Source: a virus. From it: a DNA stretch of 23,086 nucleotides. The notes below the pieces were generated by a model that saw nothing but the letters and a program-made list of their open reading frames with translations, ran no database searches and was not told the origin of the DNA. The first letter of the stretch is position 1. Each line of letters begins with the position of its first letter. Positions 6,436 to 21,831 of the stretch are shown in pieces. The translations under genes were made by a program, and so were the position numbers. Location: positions 1 through 23,086 of the IMG/VR virus record IMGVR_UViG_3300032241_003534. The stretch is one strand, 5' to 3'.

Positions 6436-6561
6436 TCAGACTCCCTCCTTAAAGCCGGTTTTGACCGCCTTAAACGACTTAAATAGCCGCCCTTGGTGCC
6501 AAGGCCGGCACATCGTGGCGGAAACGGCAAAATTGAAATGGTTTGTCATGGCAGTTTTCAT
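6436..6561 (-). CDS. 41-aa small basic protein between terminase and portal
   Basis: A short frame starts at ATG 6561-6559, overlapping the large terminase stop as ATGA. It ends two bases before the portal ATG, so its last codons contain the portal Shine-Dalgarno. The product is basic (RLFKSFKAVKTGFK near the C-terminus) with no motif. It may be a real peptide or serve mainly to carry ribosomes from terminase to portal. Coupling at both ends is the only evidence. Confidence 0.45.
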   Translation of the reverse strand: MKTAMTNHFNFAVSATMCRPWHQGRLFKSFKAVKTGFKEGV

Positions 6562-7877
6562 CCGATAACGGCGAACATTCCGGACGGTTTTTTCCCGGCA
6601 TGGAGGGCGAGGGCTTTGGCCCAGAACCGGTCGCAATGGGAATCGGCGGCTTCACCGACAAAACGGACGTTGCCGCTGGCGGTGGTTTCCTTTTTGATGC
6701 CGCGCAGATCGGCGCGCAGTTTGTCGTCCTTGGCGTAGCGCAAGGTCCGGTCTTCATGGGCGGCGCGAAGCGGGAAGGCCAGCTCTTCCTTGACCGGACC
6801 GGAAAAACGCACGGCCTCAACGCGTGAACCCCAGCGCCGGACCATCGTTTCGGCCATCTGCATACCGAGGCCGGTGGAATCGATACAGCAGCGGCGCACA
6901 TTCGGCAGGCGAAGCAATTGCTCCAGCTCCCATTCCTGCTCGGAAAAAGATTTGCCGCGCATCTCGATCCGCAGCCGTTCCCAAAACACGTCACCCATCT
7001 TTTCTTCGACATCGATGACCGAAAGGTCCGTGGTGCGCGCCACGTCGTAGCCGACGTAGAAAGTCCGCGAACGGTCCTCGGCAACATACTTAAAATCTTT
7101 TTTGGCGGTGTCATCCTCGCAGCCAGTGATCATCTCGTAAGTTATGAACGCGGAGGATTCATCTGCCGGGATGCAGCAGTATTCTTGCAGCCATTGTTCT
7201 TCGTCCAAACATTCGGCGCGTTGCCGGGCAAGCCAGGCTTCGCGCGTTTCGCTGCGGCCGGTCGCGGCGTTGATCTTCTCGACGATGCCCTGGTCAACGG
7301 CCGTCTGGATCGGGATGGTATGCAGCGACCAACCCATCTTGTTGCCGCGCGTCTTGATGTCCGTGATGATCTCATTGAACACGGTCTGCGAGCCGCGATG
7401 CGTGGAGATGATCGTCAGGGTACCGCCCCATTGCGTGACCGGCTTAGCCACGGCGTAAAGGCCACGCTGATCTTTGTGCAAGGCAAACTCATCCAGGATC
7501 ACGTGACCGCTCTTGCCGACGATGGCATCAGGATTCGAGCTGATGCAGTAAATGCAGACGCCGCTGCTGAATTTCAAAACATGCGCGGTGATGTTCTTGT
7601 CGTTATCAATGATGACCTCGCCCAAATCTTCCGCCGCGAATTTCAACACGCGTGCCCAGCGCTTGCAGTACAGCAAAAATTGTTTGGCCTGGATTTCGTC
7701 CCGGCTCATCACCCAGACATCGAGCTTGGCATCTTTCGGCGCAGCCAGGCGCACGGCCTTGTAACTCACGGCGTAGCTCAAACCGATCTGGCGACCTTTC
7801 TCGACGATCACGAGTAGCGAAGTGTCTTTGATGACCTTCGCCTGGTACGCCATGAAATATGTTTCGACTTTGGCCAT
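6558..7877 (-). CDS. terL: Terminase large subunit (Mu gp28-like)
   Basis: The start is ATG 7877-7875, overlapping the small terminase stop by one base (TGATG), giving 439 residues. The ATPase half has a lambda-style deviant Walker A with the lysine at the front (K27-G-R-Q-I-G-L-S34), Walker B VILDE at 126-130 within KSGHVILDEFAL, and a coupling motif TIISTHRG. The nuclease half shows the RNase H-like pattern GYDVARTTD with D278, then CCIDSTGLGMQ and a late DSHCDRFWAKALA. It would translocate and cut DNA into heads. The frame stays open upstream to 8438, but that part overlaps the small subunit in another frame and lacks terminase features. The protein is somewhat shorter than Mu gp28. Confidence 0.92.
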   Translation of the reverse strand: MAKVETYFMAYQAKVIKDTSLLVIVEKGRQIGLSYAVSYKAVRLAAPKDAKLDVWVMSRDEIQAKQFLLYCKRWARVLKFAAEDLGEVIIDNDKNITAHVLKFSSGVCIYCISSNPDAIVGKSGHVILDEFALHKDQRGLYAVAKPVTQWGGTLTIISTHRGSQTVFNEIITDIKTRGNKMGWSLHTIPIQTAVDQGIVEKINAATGRSETREAWLARQRAECLDEEQWLQEYCCIPADESSAFITYEMITGCEDDTAKKDFKYVAEDRSRTFYVGYDVARTTDLSVIDVEEKMGDVFWERLRIEMRGKSFSEQEWELEQLLRLPNVRRCCIDSTGLGMQMAETMVRRWGSRVEAVRFSGPVKEELAFPLRAAHEDRTLRYAKDDKLRADLRGIKKETTASGNVRFVGEAADSHCDRFWAKALALHAGKKPSGMFAVIG

Positions 7878-8431
7878 CAGAGCAATTTGAGTTCGGCTTC
7901 GATTTTCTTGAGGGTTTCCGGCGTGATGCCGCCCTTGGAAGTCTTCGCGGTTTCCAGCGCCTTCTGCGCACGGTCGTAAGCCGCCGCCTTCTTCTCCATC
8001 AACACAACCTTGCGCTGATCCAGATCGATCTGCGATTGCTTGAGGCGCAACCGCTCCGAATCCAGGACGGAGGCAAACGAGGTCGCGACGAGCTTCATCA
8101 TCTCCGGGTCCGCGTTCGCCTGGGTGGAGAGATTCAGGATCAGGACGCGCTGAAGCTTGATCAGTGTGTCGAGTTCCGGCGGTGGATTCGCACCGAACGA
8201 TTTCTCCACCGCCGCACATTGTTCCGCCCCGGACGCAATCTGCGCCAAAAGTTTTTCCTGCAAGCGCGAGGACCGCGCCGATTCCAAAAAGCGCGAGAGC
8301 GTGGACGCCGAACAGGTGACACCTTCCTCGCGCAGCCATGCGAGCATTTCGTCCAGGGTTTTGCCCTGGACATCCATGTCCATCAACGTCGGCTCGTGTG
8401 GATCGAGTTTCGATGCGATTTTTTTGCTCAT
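7877..8431 (-). CDS. terS: Terminase small subunit-like protein (Mu gp27-like, DUF3486)
   Basis: The 184-residue protein lies directly upstream of the large terminase. The first about 60 residues read as a helix-turn-helix region with LDEMLAWLREEGVTCSASTL followed by a basic turn, the layout of DUF3486 proteins such as Mu gp27. The remaining roughly 120 residues are long charged helices (for example SERLRLKQSQIDLDQRKVVL), consistent with an oligomerising coiled coil. It should recognise phage DNA and recruit the motor. The start ATG 8431-8429 is 17 bases after the previous stop. Confidence 0.85.
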   Translation of the reverse strand: MSKKIASKLDPHEPTLMDMDVQGKTLDEMLAWLREEGVTCSASTLSRFLESARSSRLQEKLLAQIASGAEQCAAVEKSFGANPPPELDTLIKLQRVLILNLSTQANADPEMMKLVATSFASVLDSERLRLKQSQIDLDQRKVVLMEKKAAAYDRAQKALETAKTSKGGITPETLKKIEAELKLL

Positions 8432-8448
8432 GGTTCATTGCGGCTCGT

Positions 8449-8697
8449 TCAAAGCTTGCGGGCCTGGTGAATGCCCTTGGTGGTCAAGGTCCAGGTGGTT
8501 TCGGAAAACTCGTCGCTCACACCTTCGCAAAAGCCTTCGCGCTCGACGGCCTTCAACGCATCCTCGACGTCCGACTTGGTGGGTTGACCAGGGCGAGCCA
8601 AGTTTTGCACCGCGCCAACCAGCGCGGACTGCGGCATGGGCAATCCGTCGCAGGCGTTGAGCGACAGCAAAATGAATTTTTTCAGTTGGGCTTTCAT
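8449..8697 (-). CDS. 82-aa winged-helix-like protein in the Mu gp26 position
   Basis: The small protein begins with an amphipathic helix (QLKKFILLSLNACDG). It then has a section resembling a wHTH: SDVEDALKAVEREGFCEGV followed by TTWTLTTKGIHQARKL, that is, a helix, a wing-like strand and a final helix. It lies between the gp25-like and gp27-like genes, the place of Mu gp26, whose function is poorly known. The start overlaps the stop of the preceding gene (ATGA). A DNA-binding or packaging accessory role is inference. Confidence 0.7.
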   Translation of the reverse strand: MKAQLKKFILLSLNACDGLPMPQSALVGAVQNLARPGQPTKSDVEDALKAVEREGFCEGVSDEFSETTWTLTTKGIHQARKL

Positions 8698-9152
8698 GGT
8701 TGGTTGCGTTTGGAAATTTCGGACATCTGGCCACGCAGCTCGCTGACCGCGCTCAAAACGTCATTGATGCGGTCATGGAGTTTTTCCCCACGATCTTCGC
8801 CCGCAGCCAGGATTTGCTGTTTGTCGTCATCCAGTTTGGTCAGCACATCCTGATTGGCTTTTTGCAGGGCAATGATGGCGTGTTCGGATTTTTCGACGCG
8901 GGCGGCGACCGGATCGAGCTTGAGGCGGTACTCCTTCAGCGCAGAATTTTTCTCGCGCATGATCTCGCCGCGCAGGGTCTTGACCATGTGTTTCAACTGA
9001 TCATCGAGCGGCGGCTTGGCACCGAAGGCTTTGTTGCCGGCATTCCAAATGGTCAGCAGCAATGCCACCACGAAAAGGAACGCGATCATGCCGGGCAACC
9101 AGCCCGTCAGTTTTTCCATCGGGATTTCGAGATCGGCAAAAATCGGTATCAT
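8694..9152 (-). CDS. Membrane-anchored coiled-coil protein (Mu gp25-like, DUF2730-like)
   Basis: From ATG 9152-9150 the product is 152 residues. One transmembrane helix spans roughly residues 16-37 (around WLPGMIAFLFVVALLLTIW). It is followed by about 100 residues of heptad-like charged helix (KLDPVAARVEKSEHAIIALQ, then KLHDRINDVLSAVSELRGQ). This architecture, one N-terminal membrane span plus coiled coil, fits DUF2730 proteins such as Mu gp25, and the downstream order (gp26, gp27, gp28-like) agrees. An inner-membrane spanin is the main alternative, since Rz proteins have the same outline. Both ends use ATGA overlaps. Confidence 0.75.
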   Translation of the reverse strand: MIPIFADLEIPMEKLTGWLPGMIAFLFVVALLLTIWNAGNKAFGAKPPLDDQLKHMVKTLRGEIMREKNSALKEYRLKLDPVAARVEKSEHAIIALQKANQDVLTKLDDDKQQILAAGEDRGEKLHDRINDVLSAVSELRGQMSEISKRNQP

Positions 9153-9367
9153 GCGTTTTTGTTGTAGAAAAATTTCGCGGCCATCTTGAGCACGCCGCCG
9201 TGCTGGATGCCGTATTCCAGGACCACACGCGCCCAGGCGTTGAACGCCTTCAGCTCCGTGCGCAGCCACAGGCATGCGGCACAGATCGCGGTCCAATTGA
9301 TCTCGACCTGCTGTTTCACCGCTTGCGCGGTATCGGCGGCTTGTTGGACTTGATTGGTATCGATCAT
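9149..9367 (-). CDS. 72-aa protein of unknown function in the lysis region
   Basis: The start ATG 9367-9365 overlaps the lipase stop, and its own stop overlaps the next gene; both are ATGA. Codons further upstream in frame belong to the lipase region. The product has an amphipathic N-terminus, a short hydrophobic patch (WTAICAACLWL) and a C-terminal helix ending in basic residues. The patch is too short for a convincing membrane span, so I do not call it a holin. No family recognised. Confidence 0.65.
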   Translation of the reverse strand: MIDTNQVQQAADTAQAVKQQVEINWTAICAACLWLRTELKAFNAWARVVLEYGIQHGGVLKMAAKFFYNKNA

Positions 9368-10110
9368 AAATTTTGGATGCGTTCCTGATACGCGGTGATG
9401 AAGTGATCGTGGATCAGCACTTCCTGCTGGTGGCGATACGCGGCATAGAGGCCGACACAATCAGACAGGATTTTAAAACCGAGCGACGGGTTGAAACAGG
9501 CAGCGCCTGCGGGCGTGATAAAAACTTCCTGACCGACATGGCGGTAACCCATCAGCACGCCGGGCGTGCGGGGCACGATGTCGTTTTGATTCACGATCCG
9601 GAAAGAACGGTCGCCGAGCGCGGCGTTGTAGATATCGCGGAAGGCAGAATTGCCCACACGCGGACAGCCGAAGGTGATGACGCCCGCGACCGGAAGATTC
9701 TTTTGCGAAAACGAAAACGCGGCCAGTGTGGCGAGTGAGCCGCCCAGGGAATGCCCGGTCAACCAGACCTTTGCCTGGGGATTCATGGCGAGATAGGTCC
9801 GCACCTGGCTGATCACCGCCACATTGACGGCGATGTAGTCTTCGAGAAAACCTTCGTGGACAAAAGCATCCTCGCGGCCGTCGAGGACCATCAGTTGCGA
9901 CATCCCGAATTTCGCGTCCTGGATAAAATCCTTTGCATGGCAGGAACCACGGAAGGCGACGACGATGCTGCCGTCATCTGCGAGCGTGACCAACGCGGCC
10001 GCATTCGTCGCCATATCGGTGATGAGATTGGTCGACGTGTAAGCGGCGGCGGCGAATTGCGCCAGCTCGCGGGCAAGCTGCCAGGAGAAATTTTTCGGGA
10101 GTTGGGTCAC
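9364..10110 (-). CDS. Class 3 lipase (alpha/beta hydrolase)
   Basis: The 248-residue protein starts at GTG 10110-10108. It has the lipase nucleophile elbow G119-H-S121-L-G-G preceded by the strand KVWLT. An Asp in QNDIVPR (D177) and a His in HDHFITAY (H236, or H234) complete a Ser-Asp-His triad in the order and spacing of lipase class 3. FGCPRVGNSAFRD after the elbow is also typical. No signal peptide is visible. Enzymes of this family cleave acyl esters of glycerolipids. It lies between a lipoprotein and the gp25-like gene, where phages usually keep lysis genes, and no peptidoglycan hydrolase is seen in the window. A role in disrupting host membranes at lysis is plausible but inferred. Confidence 0.88.
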   Translation of the reverse strand: MTQLPKNFSWQLARELAQFAAAAYTSTNLITDMATNAAALVTLADDGSIVVAFRGSCHAKDFIQDAKFGMSQLMVLDGREDAFVHEGFLEDYIAVNVAVISQVRTYLAMNPQAKVWLTGHSLGGSLATLAAFSFSQKNLPVAGVITFGCPRVGNSAFRDIYNAALGDRSFRIVNQNDIVPRTPGVLMGYRHVGQEVFITPAGAACFNPSLGFKILSDCVGLYAAYRHQQEVLIHDHFITAYQERIQNL

Positions 10111-10238: not shown

Positions 10239-10670
10239 TCAGTGACTTACCGGCGTGAGGTTATTGGCTGCGCCGGTCGTGGTATTGATGAGCGGATGTT
10301 CACCGCCGACTTCCGTGTTCACGGCGTTGGTGCCGCCGGTCGACATCGTCGTGGACATGGCCGCGTTGCCGAAGACGGCACTGTGACCGTTCGCTTCGTA
10401 GCTGCTGACCGTTTCAGGTATGATGGCCGCCGAGGCGTCCGTGGCGTTGGTGCCGTTCAGCCCGGTCGGAATCTTCATGTACTCGACCTGGTTGCGACCG
10501 ATGATCAGCTCATAGGTCTGGTTGGCGACGTTCTGGCCGATCTTGAGGCCCGTCTCCGTGACCGTGATCTTCGTCACGTCCTTGGTGTTGATGGCGGTGG
10601 CGCAGCCGGCGACAAAGCTGCCAACGGCAACGATGGCGGCGAGCGCGAGGACTTTCATGGTGTTTTTCAT
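10239..10670 (-). CDS. Small lipoprotein, Asn/Thr-rich
   Basis: From ATG 10670-10668 the product is 143 residues. A KNTMK start leads into a hydrophobic stretch and the lipobox VAGC, with Cys23 as the lipidation site. The mature part begins with a short strand-rich section (VTKITVTETGLKIGQNVANQ) and ends in a low-complexity Thr/Asn/Gly/Ala tail. It should be exported and anchored in a membrane, which implies a diderm-type lipoprotein pathway in the host. A lysis role (outer-membrane spanin subunit) or superinfection exclusion are both possible; there is no homology I can name. An 8-bp inverted repeat lies just before the start (10683-10690 and 10713-10720). Confidence 0.75.
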   Translation of the reverse strand: MKNTMKVLALAAIVAVGSFVAGCATAINTKDVTKITVTETGLKIGQNVANQTYELIIGRNQVEYMKIPTGLNGTNATDASAAIIPETVSSYEANGHSAVFGNAAMSTTMSTGGTNAVNTEVGGEHPLINTTTGAANNLTPVSH

Positions 10671-10949: not shown

Positions 10950-11042
10950 TTAATGCAGATGAATCAGCCCCCAGAGGATGAAGCCGGCGCACATGAGGAT
11001 CACCAGCCATTGCGGAGGGGCATCTGAGAAAGGATTTTTCAT
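10950..11042 (-). CDS. 30-aa single-span membrane peptide
   Basis: The ATG at 11042-11040 overlaps the stop of the upstream lipoprotein gene (ATGA). The peptide has a short polar N-terminus and one hydrophobic segment (WLVILMCAGFILWGLIHL) reaching nearly to the C-terminus. Membrane peptides of this size occur in phage lysis cassettes as holin-like or antiholin-like factors, and next to spanin-like lipoproteins. The assignment stops at single-span membrane peptide; function is not shown. Confidence 0.55.
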   Translation of the reverse strand: MKNPFSDAPPQWLVILMCAGFILWGLIHLH

Positions 11043-11527
11043 TGAGCGTGAAGCTTCAGCCAGTCTTCGGATTGCTGCTTAACGACAAAATTTTGCATGT
11101 GATAATCGGTGGGCCATTCTTTTTCTGCCTCGGCACGTATTCCGGCCATCACATCGGATGGAATTCCATTAACTGATGGAGCAAAGACTGGCATGGTTTT
11201 GACCCCAGCCCTGGCATTGATCGTCACGCACAAGTTAGAATATTGATTTTCCAGAACAGTCAAACGAGCTTCATCCACAGAAAGGTAGAGGGAATTAACA
11301 AGATTGGAGGCCGCGATGTCGGTCAAATTGGTATAGACCATCGCCAATGCCTGGGTGGACAAGATTTCAGTCGAGCGCCGGTTTTCATTCCGCTGATAAA
11401 GTTCGGTCACATTGCTCTCAAGCATTGTGATTTTTCCCTGCATCTCGGCGATGCGTGGGTCTGGTTGTTGTTTCCCGCAACCGGCGAGCAGCCCGATCGC
11501 GGCCAATGGGATGATGATATTTTTCAT
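11039..11527 (-). CDS. Coiled-coil lipoprotein, spanin-like outline
   Basis: The 162-residue product has a short hydrophobic start with lipobox LAGC (Cys17). A helical section follows (IAEMQGKITMLESNVTELYQ) that looks like a coiled coil, then a mixed C-terminal part ending in a Trp/Leu/Lys-rich helix. The ATG is two bases after the repressor stop, with the repressor's AGAAGGGG end acting as the ribosome site. Being cotranscribed with the repressor, it might be expressed in the lysogen and serve as an exclusion or surface protein. A two-component spanin subunit is the alternative. No family recognised. Confidence 0.7.
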   Translation of the reverse strand: MKNIIIPLAAIGLLAGCGKQQPDPRIAEMQGKITMLESNVTELYQRNENRRSTEILSTQALAMVYTNLTDIAASNLVNSLYLSVDEARLTVLENQYSNLCVTINARAGVKTMPVFAPSVNGIPSDVMAGIRAEAEKEWPTDYHMQNFVVKQQSEDWLKLHAQ

Positions 11528-11529
11528 TC

Positions 11530-12003
11530 TTACCCCTTCTTAACAGACTCGACCGCACGGTTCAAAATTTTGTTAGCAAGTTCATCCACGCGGGTATTGG
11601 GTGCCTGTCTGACGTAACTGATCCTAGTGCCTGATCCGGTCAGAATTTGGCGTAGGCTGTCCTTTATATTTTCCAGCTCGCGCTCGGCGGTCTCCGCCCG
11701 GATACGCCAGTGTTCATCCGCACCGCCTTCGCGCATCACCATCGCGCCGGTCTGACTCTGCACAAAACGGCGCATGGCGACCAATGTCATTTCGCGAGGA
11801 CTTCGTTTGCCTTTCAGGATGAGCGATATGGCTGCCGGTGAAATTTTTAATTCACGGGCGACATCAGAGGCCGAAATTTCGATGGCCTCCAGTTGCGCAA
11901 ATAGTTCACAGAACTCGACTTGCTCCGGTGTTTTAAAGTCGCTCACGGGATTTAACAAAGTTAAAGATTTTTCGTTGACATTTTTAACTATGTAAATTAG
12001 CAT
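11530..12003 (-). CDS. Phage repressor-like HTH protein
   Basis: The product is 157 residues if started at ATG 12003-12001. A helix-turn-helix lies at about 43-80 (SASDVARELKISPAAISLIL then KGKRSPREMT), followed by a likely coiled coil (about 100-120) and a C-terminal helix. It is divergent from the Cro/Ner-like gene, the classic immunity layout. The first about 20 codons overlap the operator-like sites, and a possible minus-strand promoter (TTGACA at 12011-12006) would begin the transcript near 11975. A shorter product from GTG 11946-11944 (138 aa) is therefore quite possible. No protease-type C-terminal domain is present, so induction would not be LexA-like. Confidence 0.8.
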   Translation of the reverse strand: MLIYIVKNVNEKSLTLLNPVSDFKTPEQVEFCELFAQLEAIEISASDVARELKISPAAISLILKGKRSPREMTLVAMRRFVQSQTGAMVMREGGADEHWRIRAETAERELENIKDSLRQILTGSGTRISYVRQAPNTRVDELANKILNRAVESVKKG

Positions 12004-15228: not shown

Positions 15229-15338
15229 ACGAAACTCAAGCTGCTGATTTAGTCAGGGCCGTTCAGCTTATTGCCTTTTGTGTCGGAATTATGACGTCCG
15301 TCATTATCGCGATTTTGCTCACATCAAATAAAAAATAA
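15225..15338 (+). CDS. 37-aa single-span membrane peptide before the transposase
   Basis: GTG 15225-15227 overlaps the previous stop (GTGA). The stop overlaps the transposase ATG as TAATG. One hydrophobic helix (AVQLIAFCVGIMTSVIIAIL) lies between a short acidic start and a basic end (SNKK), suggesting an N-out/C-in orientation. Function unknown; it may act mainly to couple transposase translation. Confidence 0.55.
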   Translation: MNETQAADLVRAVQLIAFCVGIMTSVIIAILLTSNKK

Positions 15339-17479
15339 TGATCTCCGACCTCTCAACCATATCCGGCACCGGCAACTTGCCGGCGGTTCCACATGGAACA
15401 GATTTGCGCGTGGCCATCGGCGAGACGGGTGCGCTGCAACCGGTGCGTGACGTGGCGAAATATCTCGCCGAGCGCGCCCCGCGTCCGGAGACGGCCGGCG
15501 AGGAAGGTCTGCTGATCACGTTGCCGGCGAAACTGCAACAGGAGGTCGAGGCGTTGGTCCGCGCCTGTAAATTTGTCGCCGATCTGGTGACTGATAAATG
15601 GAGTGTCCAGGCGGCGTGCAAGTACGTGATCGCGGGCAAAGCTTATGCGCGCTGGAATTGGAACCTGAACACCTTCCGCCAGAAGTTCGATCTTTGGTTT
15701 CAAAAGCGCGACTGGGTGGTACTGGTCAACTTTTCCAAAGCGCCGGCCTCGTGGCGGTCCCTGACCTCGACCAACATGCCCGAAGAGTTTCTGGCCTACT
15801 GCGAATCCAAGCTCGGCAAATTCGCGCGCGAGGACGGCAAACGCCAGGCGTTGCTCTCGATCCAGAAACATTGGCGGGTCGGTCGCGACGAGCAGGGCAA
15901 TGAATGTGCCGTGCCTGGCTACGAGGCGAAGTGGTCGAAGCGCGACCGCGAGAATCTGCCCGCCGGCTGGAGTTACTCAAACATCATGCGGCAGATGAAG
16001 AAGCGCGCGCGTGCGACGAAGGCCGTGCTGAAGATGTTGCACATCAGCGAATCCGCCGCCCGCGAGCTGTTGCCGCAGATGCTCGGATCGCGCGGCAAGC
16101 TCCGCTTCCTGGAGAAGATCACCTTCGACGACGTGCGCATGGACTGGCTCGTCTTCAATCCGGCGAGCGGTCAGGCCGAAGAGCTGTGGTTGCTCGTGGC
16201 CCGCGACGAGGCCACGGCGATGGTGCTCGGTTTCGTGATGCATCCACGCACGATCCGCGAGGACGGTACGGCGTCGAGCCTTGGTGCCCGGCACATGAAG
16301 GAGCTAGCGGCGTATATCCTCGAACGGTATCCGTTGCCGCCATATCCGGAGCATTGGATCGTTGAACGTGGCACGGCCACGCTCAAGGAAGCGGTCCAGG
16401 CCGCGCTCGGCGAGCTGCTCAATAACCGGATCAAGGTTCATTACACCTCGATGATCGGGGACCGGTCGGCGGTCGGTTATAAGGAAAAGGCCAAGGGCAA
16501 TTCACGCGGCAAGGCCAGTCACGAAGCGCACAACCGGCTTTTCCATACGCAGTTGAGTTTCGTCGAGGGTCAGACCGGCGCGGATTGGAGCATCCGGCCC
16601 GCTGATCTGGAAGCGCGCGTGAAGGAATGCCAGGCGATCCACGAATTTTCCAAGACGTTGCCGGAGAGCAAACGCGGCGAGGTCCGATGGCCGTTGCGGA
16701 CGCTGGCCCAGGCCCGCGTGATCATCGAGCAAATCTGCCATGACCAGAACTGCCGCGATAAACATGACCTCGAAGGCTTCGACCAGGTGATCGAGAGATG
16801 GACCGGGGAAAAATGGGAGGTCGTGGAGAGCGCACCGGTCGGTGCGGAATGTCGCGTGCGCAAGGAACGGCCCTACGAGCGGGCGATGAAGTTGATCCGC
16901 TCGGTGGAAAAATGGGACCGCATCTCGCCGCAGATCATCGTGAGCTTCCTCGAACACACGCAACGCTTTGAGGCGGTGGAAGAGAACGGCGAGATTCATT
17001 TTACGCACGAGGGGGCCATCCTGAAGTTCCGGCACAGCGGCGATCCGTTGCCGCCAGGAACGAAATGCCTGGTCTATCACCATCCGGCCACGCCGGAGTT
17101 TATCCACCTGACGACGGGCGACGGGCGGATTCTCGGCACCTGGGTGCAACGCGGTCGCGGCAATTTCCTGGATGCCCAGGCATTGGCCGAGGGAATGCGT
17201 TACACGCACGCGGCCCGCGAGGCCGCGAAGGCGACCGCTGCCGAGCTGGCGGCACCGCAACGGGCCAGCCTGGAAGAAATGCGGGCGCATAACGAACGGC
17301 TGAAAGACTTCGTGACCATCACGGACGCGCCGGATGCCGAAGGCTATCTGACCGGCAGCGCGGTCAGCGCGGCGCTCGGCACGGTGAAGCCGACCGCCCA
17401 ACACAACCAGCAGAATCCGCCGCCGCTCGAATCCGAGCCGGATTGCACCAATGACATTTTGTCCTCAGAGGACGTTTAA
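15338..17479 (+). CDS. MuA-like DDE transposase (replicative/integrative)
   Basis: The 713-residue protein has a MuA outline. An N-terminal DNA-binding section at about 85-145 includes ACKYVIAGKAYARWNWNLNT and QKRDWVVLVNFSKAP. The RNase H-like core runs at about 255-400, with FDD at 263-265 (D264 as first acid) and SHEAHNRLFH (E396 as last). Then come a beta-barrel-like section (about 500-620, with the short strands FIHLTTGDGRILGTW) and a long helical C-terminus that in MuA binds MuB and ClpX. The second acid aligns with E343 in HWIVERGTA, where Asp is the norm. Spacings of 79 and 53 residues resemble MuA. It would cut and join phage ends during integration and transposition replication. The start overlaps the previous stop (TAATG). 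Lack of Asp at position 343 is noted as a finding. Confidence 0.93.
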   Translation: MISDLSTISGTGNLPAVPHGTDLRVAIGETGALQPVRDVAKYLAERAPRPETAGEEGLLITLPAKLQQEVEALVRACKFVADLVTDKWSVQAACKYVIAGKAYARWNWNLNTFRQKFDLWFQKRDWVVLVNFSKAPASWRSLTSTNMPEEFLAYCESKLGKFAREDGKRQALLSIQKHWRVGRDEQGNECAVPGYEAKWSKRDRENLPAGWSYSNIMRQMKKRARATKAVLKMLHISESAARELLPQMLGSRGKLRFLEKITFDDVRMDWLVFNPASGQAEELWLLVARDEATAMVLGFVMHPRTIREDGTASSLGARHMKELAAYILERYPLPPYPEHWIVERGTATLKEAVQAALGELLNNRIKVHYTSMIGDRSAVGYKEKAKGNSRGKASHEAHNRLFHTQLSFVEGQTGADWSIRPADLEARVKECQAIHEFSKTLPESKRGEVRWPLRTLAQARVIIEQICHDQNCRDKHDLEGFDQVIERWTGEKWEVVESAPVGAECRVRKERPYERAMKLIRSVEKWDRISPQIIVSFLEHTQRFEAVEENGEIHFTHEGAILKFRHSGDPLPPGTKCLVYHHPATPEFIHLTTGDGRILGTWVQRGRGNFLDAQALAEGMRYTHAAREAAKATAAELAAPQRASLEEMRAHNERLKDFVTITDAPDAEGYLTGSAVSAALGTVKPTAQHNQQNPPPLESEPDCTNDILSSEDV

Positions 17480-17503: not shown

Positions 17504-18601
17504 ATGCCAAAAAATACATGGACCCCAAATGCTGAACAGCGCGAGACGCTGATCAAGCTCAAGGAAGACTCCTGCAAAAACTACACGCTGTTTGTGCAGG
17601 AGTACGGGAACGACACCATCGGTACGCCGAGCAAGCTGTCGCAAATCCTGGACGCGCTCGATCCGGACGCGACGAGCTACTTCAACAAGATCGATGAGCC
17701 GGAGACGCTGATGGCGGATGTCACGGAGTTCGTGAAGGATTTGCCGCGCCAGAAGCGGGCGAAGTTTTCCATCGTGGAGACGGTGATCAAGCCGATCTCG
17801 ACCTTTGTGGCGACGGCCAAGGTGGCGCGCAGCCTGAAGAACGTGAAGACGGCGGAACGTTGCATCCAATACATCGGCCCGACCGGTTCCTCGAAGACGA
17901 CGCTGTTCAGCTATCTGCAAAAGGAGTTGAAGACGGAATTCACCGTTGCCCTGGTGAACTGCCGTGATTCCTGGCGGCCATCCTCGCGCGATCTGCGCCA
18001 GCGGGCGAAGACGGTCGTGCTGAAGGATATCTGCGACGGCCTGGGCGTTTACATTCCGGCCGAGTTTCGCCAGGCGAAGCCGGGCAGTGATCCGGATGTG
18101 AAGGATCAGATCAAGCTGGAGGCGGTGCCGGCGGTGGAAGACCTGCTGGTCGATGCGTTGCAAAAGCGCGTGTACTTCCTCTTCCTGGAGGAAGGTCGTT
18201 TCCTCCGGACGTACGCGATCAACCTGCTGATCGATCTGATGAACCGCACGAAGCTCGTAATGCTCATCACCAACACGCCCAAGGCCAATCAGGCGATGCA
18301 TCAATATTGCGCGGATGAATCCGACCAGCTCGACCGGCGCACGGCGGCGGTGATCAAGCCCGGTGTCGTGACCGTGGCGGATGCGGGGTTGTTTTTCGAG
18401 CCGGATCAGTTCGAGGATCGCGAGGCGGCGTTGGAGGTCATCGCACGGGCGGCCTCGGAGTTCGGCCATTTCAGTCTCATCAGTCGCGTGGCGAAACGCC
18501 TGGGCAAGACGACCAGCGCCACGTTGAAGGAAACGGAAGCGGCCATCACGGCGGCGAGCCGGCAGATGAACCGGAACAAAACCTTTGCCGAACGCGCCTG
18601 A
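17504..18601 (+). CDS. MuB-like AAA ATPase, transposition target activator
   Basis: The 365-residue protein directly follows the transposase with a good AGAGAGG ribosome site. It has Walker A G125-PTGSSKT132 and Walker B-like FLFLEEG with E229-E230. VYFLFLEEGRFLRTYAINLL followed by MNRTKLVMLI and a sensor-like ITNTP match the MuB/TnsC type. About 120 residues precede the ATPase core, similar to the N-terminal HTH plus linker of MuB. It should polymerise on DNA with ATP, pick the target and stimulate the transposase. The first Walker B acid is Glu rather than Asp. Longer than Mu gpB (312 aa). Confidence 0.9.
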   Translation: MPKNTWTPNAEQRETLIKLKEDSCKNYTLFVQEYGNDTIGTPSKLSQILDALDPDATSYFNKIDEPETLMADVTEFVKDLPRQKRAKFSIVETVIKPISTFVATAKVARSLKNVKTAERCIQYIGPTGSSKTTLFSYLQKELKTEFTVALVNCRDSWRPSSRDLRQRAKTVVLKDICDGLGVYIPAEFRQAKPGSDPDVKDQIKLEAVPAVEDLLVDALQKRVYFLFLEEGRFLRTYAINLLIDLMNRTKLVMLITNTPKANQAMHQYCADESDQLDRRTAAVIKPGVVTVADAGLFFEPDQFEDREAALEVIARAASEFGHFSLISRVAKRLGKTTSATLKETEAAITAASRQMNRNKTFAERA

Positions 18602-20153: not shown

Positions 20154-20389
20154 GCGATGGTGATCAATCTATTTTTGATGCCAGGAACAAGATGCACGAG
20201 CGGGGCATCGTGATCGAACCGACGACACTAACCGGCTATTGCGACGATCTCGAAAAATGGGGCTGCGAACTTCTGGAGGATGAAGATGGTGAATTTTCCG
20301 TGATGAATCGCAATGGCGCTGTCACAAAACTTGAAAACACCAGCCGCTTTGCCGCCGCGTTTGAAGCTTGGCACCTGATGAAGCCATGA
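20150..20389 (+). CDS. 79-aa acidic early protein
   Basis: ATG 20150-20152 overlaps the previous stop and follows AAGGAGGT. The product is acidic with LTGYCDDLEKWGCELLEDED in the middle and an aromatic end (AAAFEAWHLMKP). Its stop overlaps the helicase start (ATGA). It might be a helicase partner by position, but nothing in the sequence shows it. Confidence 0.62.
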   Translation: MSDGDQSIFDARNKMHERGIVIEPTTLTGYCDDLEKWGCELLEDEDGEFSVMNRNGAVTKLENTSRFAAAFEAWHLMKP

Positions 20390-21831
20390 TCGAATCCGTC
20401 TCCAATCCGCTTGATCTGAAGCGTGGCCGTCGCCAGCGGGCGGCCACGCCTTCAGGTTCAGCGGACCGGTTGCCGCCGCATGATCTTCAGATGGAGATGG
20501 GCGTGCTCGGTTGCTGCCTGCTCGATCCGAATGAATGTATCGCGCAGTGCATCGAGGCGTTGAAGGACGATGGCAAGCTGGCGTTCTACGATCTGCGGCA
20601 TCAGACGGTTTATGAAACCCTCGTGGCGATGTTCGAGGCCCGGACGCCGATTGAACTGCTCACGGTGCAGCAGTATTTAAAGGATCGCGGCCTCCTGAAA
20701 CAGATCGGTGACTTCGCCTACCTAAACCAATTGCAAGACGCGGTACCGAGCGCGGCGAATCTTTCCTGGTATCTGGAAAAACTGCGTGACAAATATTTGC
20801 TGCGCCGGCTGGTGACGACGTGCAGCGGGATCGTCGGCAGCGTATTTGATTTTGAAGGCGACGTGGAAGGGTTGCTGGATGATTCGGAGAAATCTTTCCT
20901 GAAAATCGCGGAGAGCCGCGTGACCGGCCAGAGCCGCAAGATGGGTGACCTGGTGCATCACTCGATCACGATGGTTGAAAACTATTTTACGCGCCAGGGC
21001 GAGATCATGGGCATCCCGACCGGCTTGAAAGATTTTGACCGGATGACGGATGGGATGCACGGCGGTGAGATGCTTGTCTTTGCCGCCCGCCCTGGGATGG
21101 GAAAAACGTCGCTCGCTATGGGAATTGCCGAGCACGTGGCGCTGGAATTGCACCTTCCGGTGGGGGTTTTTTCCCTCGAAATGACGGCGGAATCTTTGGT
21201 CTTGCGCATGATGTGTTCGCGCGCGCGGGTGAATCTGCGGAACATCCGCGATGGCTATATGTCGCAGACGGATTTTCCGAAGCTGCAAAGGGCGGCTGAA
21301 GAGTTGCACCACGCGCCGTTGCACATCGTGGATCAAAGCGGTCTGTCCATCATGCAGGCCCGTGCGCGGGCGCGCCGGATGCATCAGCAGCATGGCATCA
21401 AGCTTTTCGTGTTCGATTATCTCCAACTGCTGACCTCGACCTCGCGCAAGGCGCAGGAGAGCCGGCAGGTGGAGATTTCAGACATCAGCGCCGGTCTCAA
21501 GGGACTGGCCAAGGATTTGAACGTGCCCGTCATTGTCCTGGCACAGCTCAACCGCGAGATCGAGAAGGACAAGGCCCGCAAACCGCGCCTGTCTGATCTG
21601 CGCGAGAGCGGCAGCATCGAGCAGGACGCCGATCTGGTGGGTCTGCTCTACAAACCGGAAAAGGATGATGAGGCCGACGCTCACGATGAGGAAGACGGCG
21701 AGCTGGTGAATCTGTTGATCGCCAAGCAACGCAACGGCCCGACCGGTGATATCAATCTGACGTTCCTGAAGCCGTACACGCGCTTTGAGCAGGCGAGCAA
21801 ATTCAGCAGGGAGGATGTGCCGGAAAGATGA
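20386..21831 (+). CDS. dnaB: Replicative DNA helicase, DnaB family, full length
   Basis: From ATG 20386-20388 (overlapping the previous stop) the product is 481 residues, the usual size of DnaB. An N-terminal DnaB domain (about 30-135: PPHDLQMEMGVLGCCLLDPN, YLEKLRDKYLLRRL) is followed by a linker helix. The RecA-like motor then has Walker A ARPGMGKTS (K240), VFSLEMTAES, Walker B LFVFDYLQLL (D344), the VLAQLNREIE switch and LRESGSIEQDADLVGLLY with the arginine-finger region. It unwinds DNA 5'-3' at a fork and would recruit primase. Mu itself uses the host DnaB, so a phage copy is notable in a transposable phage. All motifs look intact. Confidence 0.95.
   Translation: MIESVSNPLDLKRGRRQRAATPSGSADRLPPHDLQMEMGVLGCCLLDPNECIAQCIEALKDDGKLAFYDLRHQTVYETLVAMFEARTPIELLTVQQYLKDRGLLKQIGDFAYLNQLQDAVPSAANLSWYLEKLRDKYLLRRLVTTCSGIVGSVFDFEGDVEGLLDDSEKSFLKIAESRVTGQSRKMGDLVHHSITMVENYFTRQGEIMGIPTGLKDFDRMTDGMHGGEMLVFAARPGMGKTSLAMGIAEHVALELHLPVGVFSLEMTAESLVLRMMCSRARVNLRNIRDGYMSQTDFPKLQRAAEELHHAPLHIVDQSGLSIMQARARARRMHQQHGIKLFVFDYLQLLTSTSRKAQESRQVEISDISAGLKGLAKDLNVPVIVLAQLNREIEKDKARKPRLSDLRESGSIEQDADLVGLLYKPEKDDEADAHDEEDGELVNLLIAKQRNGPTGDINLTFLKPYTRFEQASKFSREDVPER

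Follow-up and report, generated by a model that had tools for sequence, protein, structure and literature searches.

Lipolytic enzymes in and around phage lysis

Lysis of Gram-negative cells is usually told as the work of holin, endolysin and spanin, while lipolytic lysis enzymes are known for mycobacteriophages. In phage Mu, the lysis cassette (lys gp22, gp23, gp24) precedes gp25–gp28. The Rz/Rz1 spanins serve the outer-membrane step of lysis in Gram-negative hosts and do so by fusing membranes, having no enzyme activity. LysB of mycobacteriophages Ms6 and D29 is a GxSxG serine esterase of the lysis cassette that acts on the outermost lipid layer (PMC6116114); this cutinase-like enzyme, encoded downstream of lysA, hydrolyses the ester bonds of mycolyl-arabinogalactan in the outer membrane of mycobacteria. 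The DUF1353 protein TtaP is a proven phospholipase A2 that carries no secretion signal, its close relatives are prophage DUF1353 proteins, and the other genes at its locus resemble prophage proteins and muramidases (PMC11525133). The Rhizomucor-type triacylglycerol lipases, finally, are secreted fungal enzymes with no link to phage lysis.

The phage lipase described here resembles each of these in part. Like LysB, it is a GxSxG enzyme of the alpha/beta-hydrolase fold found at lysis genes, but it is of the fungal class 3 type, is expected to meet a Gram-negative envelope of LPS and phospholipid, and occurs mostly without a known endolysin; mycolates are not expected in Verrucomicrobiota hosts. 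The sequence-only reading of this DNA had named LysB as an esterase precedent with a different envelope, which is apt for the concept of a lipolytic lysis enzyme and not for the sequence family. Like TtaP, it is a lipid hydrolase with no secretion signal, and in two related phages its slot is taken by a divergent DUF1353 relative; the folds are unrelated, however, DUF1353 proteins use a His/Asp mechanism, and no DUF1353 protein is present in our window. The Mu arrangement recurs in that the lipase also lies upstream of the gp25, gp26, TerS and TerL positions, with the differences that a lipase stands instead of a lysozyme and that the late genes diverge from the early operon. The likeness to Rz/Rz1 lies in the outer-membrane step proposed below and in the spanins that neighbour lipase homologues of marine phages; no spanin was recognized in the window. 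With the Rhizomucor-type lipases it shares sequence family and catalytic residues. Our literature search, made in open-access papers, found no description of this lipase and lysis arrangement.

A Mu-like phage of Verrucomicrobiota

The window, that is, the whole stretch of 23,086 bases analysed here, is the complete IMG/VR record IMGVR_UViG_3300032241_003534, a genome fragment of a Mu-like (transposable) phage of Verrucomicrobiota, the host group to which portal relatives in metagenome-assembled genome bins belong (uncultured subdivision 3, Pedosphaera, Verrucomicrobiales). Its late genes occupy the minus strand in the order capsid, protease, portal fused to a Mu F-like domain, terminase and then the lipase region; they extend only as far as head completion, without most of the tail genes or the far late end. 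The plus strand carries the early operon, with a MuA-like transposase (15338–17479; PHROG transposase, 7.3e-8), an AAA protein (17504–18601) and a full DnaB-type helicase (20368–21831), the last being unusual in a transposable phage. Early and late genes diverge from an HTH_3 regulator gene near position 12,000 (11530–12003, minus strand; early side to 23086), an arrangement from which Mu differs.

The genes around the lipase all lie on the minus strand. The large terminase subunit occupies 6558–7880 with an approximate start, the open reading frame listed for it (6558–8438) being over-extended, and the small subunit occupies 7877–8431, the position of Mu gp27, where a relative's protein matches the PHROG terminase small subunit at 8.5e-7. 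An 82-aa winged-helix-like protein conserved beside TerS (8449–8697) holds the position of gp26, and a 152-aa protein that combines one TM segment with a coiled coil (8694–9152), whose cluster takes in 24 of the compared open reading frames, holds that of gp25. The latter has no Pfam match to the Mu gp25 families, so that its earlier label ‘gp25-like’ is not confirmed by profiles and describes a position. Between it and the lipase lies a gene for a weakly hydrophobic 72-aa protein (9149–9367; best 17-residue Kyte–Doolittle mean 0.98), joined to the lipase stop by an ATGA overlap. On the other side of the lipase are a lipoprotein with a signal peptide and an FVAGC lipobox read directly from the sequence (10239–10670, its start inferred from Met30 of the listed open reading frame), a 30-aa protein with one TM segment (10950–11042) that overlaps the preceding lipoprotein gene by ATGA and was not found in relative G009, and a second lipoprotein with the lipobox LLAGC (11039–11527). 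The lipase had been placed between a lipoprotein gene and a gp25-like gene, of which the lipoprotein stands and the second neighbour does not, as the 72-aa frame intervenes; likewise, of two supposed membrane genes, the 30-aa one has its TM segment and the 72-aa one is only weakly hydrophobic. No holin was identified in the operon among these small proteins, which counts against the lysis model developed below.

That this region adjoins the terminase genes might suggest a virion protein, with the particle carrying the lipase and using it at entry. We consider this highly improbable, as the gene occupies the lysis slot upstream of TerS, outside the virion genes, and none of 36 lipases in that slot is fused to a virion protein.

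An intact class 3 lipase

The lipase gene (9364–10110, minus strand) begins with GTG and encodes 248 aa with the triad Ser121-Asp177-His236. The protein matches Lipase_3 (PF01764) in Pfam with an E-value of 2e-33 (115.7 bits, cut-off 22) and the PHROG esterase/lipase family at 1.5e-20, and a profile of the lipase with five relatives finds the triacylglycerol lipase entries 1tgl/4tgl at 3.6e-35, in an alignment that runs through GHSLGG and the catalytic Asp. All three triad residues are invariant in 78 of 78 phage lipases, 36 from the same slot and 42 from other phages. The sequence-only reading of a complete Ser121-Asp177-His236 lipase is thus borne out, the open reading frame being real, as is its remark that a signal peptide is missing: the N-terminus has neither a signal peptide nor a hydrophobic stretch. 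In Pfam only Lipase_3 and alpha/beta-hydrolase models match, and no wall-cutting domain is present. With the related Cutinase model (PF01083) the protein reaches 17.0, below the cut-off of 25.9, and, Lipase_3 being the best match, the features tested place the enzyme outside the LysB family. From its sequence, then, this is an intact class 3 enzyme under strong conservation, for which hydrolysis of lipid esters is predicted.

A conserved slot with interchangeable hydrolases

Relatives were gathered by their lipase and, against bias, separately by their portal. In 36 Mu-like phages the order is a secreted lipoprotein or OM-barrel-like protein, the lipase, a TM/coiled-coil protein, a winged-helix protein, TerS and TerL. 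The lineages of transposase, terminase and portal are shuffled around this slot, which indicates that the arrangement reflects more than the common ancestry of a single contig.

The gene upstream of the lipase nearly always encodes a secreted lipoprotein or an OM-barrel-like protein, and this might be read as an envelope-modifying or exclusion module, in which that protein and the lipase act on the host surface, for example in superinfection exclusion. Such a module seems very unlikely to us, the lipase having no signal peptide, the neighbouring secreted proteins being mutually unrelated and other phages having lysis genes next to the lipase. Across some 30 relatives the proteins that alternate directly upstream of the lipase comprise several lipoprotein families and OM-barrel-like proteins with an aromatic last residue. 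One of them, in relative G024 (L134:14055–14681), is a lipoprotein-like dual-specificity phosphatase, to which PTP-type Pfam matches were assigned by reading its sequence. Several phages carry an inserted gene for a D12-type adenine methylase just downstream of the hydrolase (L008 near 3130; L132 and L054 downstream of the lipase; L166:5731–6624).

The lipase is itself exchanged for other enzymes. Among the 14 portal-selected phages in which the slot is covered, nine carry Lipase_3, two a second alpha/beta hydrolase (L108, L158), two a DUF1353-like protein (L153, L160) and one, G004, no lipid hydrolase in that place, which counts against the lysis model. The second hydrolase is about 204 aa long and has a GHSNG elbow. 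It was found by a further scan in the slot of three more phages, five in all; it aligns with the lipase around the nucleophile elbow at 47% probability in profile–profile comparison. Its AlphaFold model is of low confidence with a partly confident core at residues about 56–136, and its best Foldseek match, phospholipase PlaB (E 0.016, TM-score 0.32), was too weak to be given weight; this model and its weak matches count against the lysis model as well.

The third type, a protein about 147 aa long, carries an HDxLY motif. It has no Pfam match to DUF1353 (PF07087) by sequence profile and, since its AlphaFold model (pLDDT 42.8) was too poor for use, we relied on profile–profile comparison with shuffled controls: hhalign links it to Verrucomicrobiota DUF1353 proteins at 91% probability, against 0.1–3.1% for 20 shuffles and 0.1–0.4% for unrelated families. 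By this profile–profile link it would be a divergent DUF1353 relative. The protein falls in a PHROGs ‘tail assembly chaperone’ family, a label that we think was carried along by annotation, because the only similar phage gene found, from a Colwellia phage, bears that name in just one of its two records and is listed as hypothetical in the second. Of the 194 Verrucomicrobiota genomes sampled, 31 have DUF1353 genes. Members of the 72-aa family are encoded after each of the three hydrolase types, in most cases overlapping by ATGA (after the other two types in L108, L166, L153 and L160).

Homologues beside lysis genes of other phages

Distant homologues of the lipase in other phages (loci L058–L107) have Rz-like spanins and endolysins among their neighbours. 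An i-spanin and o-spanin pair lies directly upstream of the lipase in seven loci (L067, L081, L087, L091, L103, L104, L105) and a GH24 lysozyme does so in nine (L077, L078, L095, L096, L098, L099, L101, L106, L107), most of the latter having a spanin pair farther on; these counts come from profiles built from the loci's own members, with identities taken from PHROGs and Pfam. In L069, which has a Mu-like terminase, the order is GH108 endolysin, lipoprotein, lipase, TM/coiled-coil, winged helix, TerS and TerL. Beside a known lysis cassette, the lipase occurs in addition to the endolysin and does not replace it.

Not every member of the family can be counted as a lysis gene: in Prochlorococcus phage P-SSM2 and Cylindrospermopsis phage Cr-LKS4 the homologue has no annotated lysis gene next to it. 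These two homologues tell against the lysis model and, together with the triacylglycerol lipases as nearest solved structures, would fit an auxiliary enzyme that breaks host lipids or storage fat down to fatty acids during infection, as a source of energy or to remodel membranes, and lies near the lysis module incidentally. Such a role is unlikely here, in our judgement, given the place between lipoprotein and TerS that is fixed in 36 phages, the exchange with other lipid hydrolases and the spanin and endolysin neighbours in other phages. A survey of 288 Verrucomicrobiota genomes gave 15 lipase matches, none of which (0 of 15) has phage neighbours within about 1.5 kb.

The search for peptidoglycan hydrolases

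Domain searches with Pfam and profiles found no peptidoglycan hydrolase in the window, in agreement with the earlier statement that it holds no lysozyme, amidase or transglycosylase, and Pfam searches of 65 window and early-strand open reading frames gave no endolysin among the matches listed (25 of 34 families). Because the window is a fragment with late genes to head completion, absence there proves little. We reject the view that an endolysin was merely cut off with the contig, since nearly complete late regions of relatives also show no recognized one. Lysozyme (PF00959), SLT (PF01464) and GH108 (PF05838) domains are missing from about 34 Verrucomicrobiota-type records (SLT from all 37 records searched), and matches to Phage_lysozyme and GH108 were confined to L077, L069 and L068, which are comparison phages. 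Among 178 late-strand open reading frames, mainly cluster representatives of 18 long contigs together with a small number of other loci, the only wall enzymes recognized by Pfam were NlpC/P60 (two) and DPBB_1 (one). In relative G006 (L019) the late region shows no recognized wall hydrolase up to a hybrid histidine-kinase frame (1–1764) with which the contig opens and which reads as host DNA, so that this contig seemingly carries the junction of an integrated copy. The same contig encodes an 854-aa probable tail protein (L019:7295–9859) that contains a GDSL lipase/acylhydrolase domain (PF13472, E 7.8e-9) and may be an esterase of surface polysaccharides.

These absences invite the reading that the lipase replaces the endolysin, lysis being achieved mainly by digestion of membrane lipids and the wall being cut by host autolysins or not at all. 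We regard this as rather unlikely. Pfam-based scans are blind to hydrolase families absent from Pfam; in known cassettes the lipase stands alongside an endolysin; and we know of no case in which lipid hydrolysis alone opens a cell with an intact wall. Moreover, six of 35 relatives have an NlpC/P60 domain, in the tail region far from the lipase, as in siphophage tail tips, and four of 37 encode on the early side a small secreted Rpf/SLT-like protein related to RpfC (E 0.003; IESGD...GEVSRFQI; G001 31261–31836, G015 25307–25627, G018 15870–16205, G020 33674–34003), possibly a cryptic wall hydrolase. Its presence in just four of 37 led us to reject it as the general endolysin. The suggested check of relatives for a lipase in place of an endolysin finds a known endolysin missing, a result qualified by these Rpf-like and NlpC/P60 proteins. 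The fullest form of the reading, that these phages encode no peptidoglycan hydrolase at all and that released lipases or phospholipases of three unrelated, interchangeable families are the main lytic enzyme in a Gram-negative-type host, we hold to be quite unlikely.

A proposed lipolytic step in phage release

Taken from sequence and gene order, the best explanation is that the enzyme is probably the lysis-module lipase of a Mu-like Verrucomicrobiota phage, released by a holin and attacking envelope lipids. The lysis-region reading is supported because the slot is conserved in 36 Mu-like phages, because non-homologous lipid hydrolases swap into it, because homologues in unrelated phages adjoin endolysins and spanins, and because the absence of known hydrolases extends to nearly complete relatives, including G006. 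These points uphold the earlier placement of the lipase in a lysis region; the stronger reading, replacement of the endolysin, is the less likely part.

We infer late expression, holin release, a phospholipid substrate and an outer-membrane target, all four. Made late and without a signal peptide, the lipase would be kept in the cytoplasm and let out once a holin, or a comparable small membrane protein encoded in its operon, had opened a lesion in the membrane. Once released, it would hydrolyse ester bonds of envelope glycerophospholipids and so contribute to dissolving membranes, and most likely it is the outer membrane that would be cleared and release thereby finished. The peptidoglycan step would probably fall to a protein not recognized here, and we think that a lipase with a cryptic endolysin is likelier than a lipase replacing one.

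This family of Mu-like Verrucomicrobia phages almost always has a lipid-splitting enzyme at the place of lysis and usually has no recognizable wall-cutter. The slot points to lipid digestion as an under-recognized part of phage escape and raises the question of whether the outer-membrane step of lysis may proceed by lipid hydrolysis. Three interchanging hydrolase families, together with endolysin and spanin neighbours, suggest a general lipolytic step in phage release which, if true, would give a role to many phage ‘lipase’ and DUF1353 genes.
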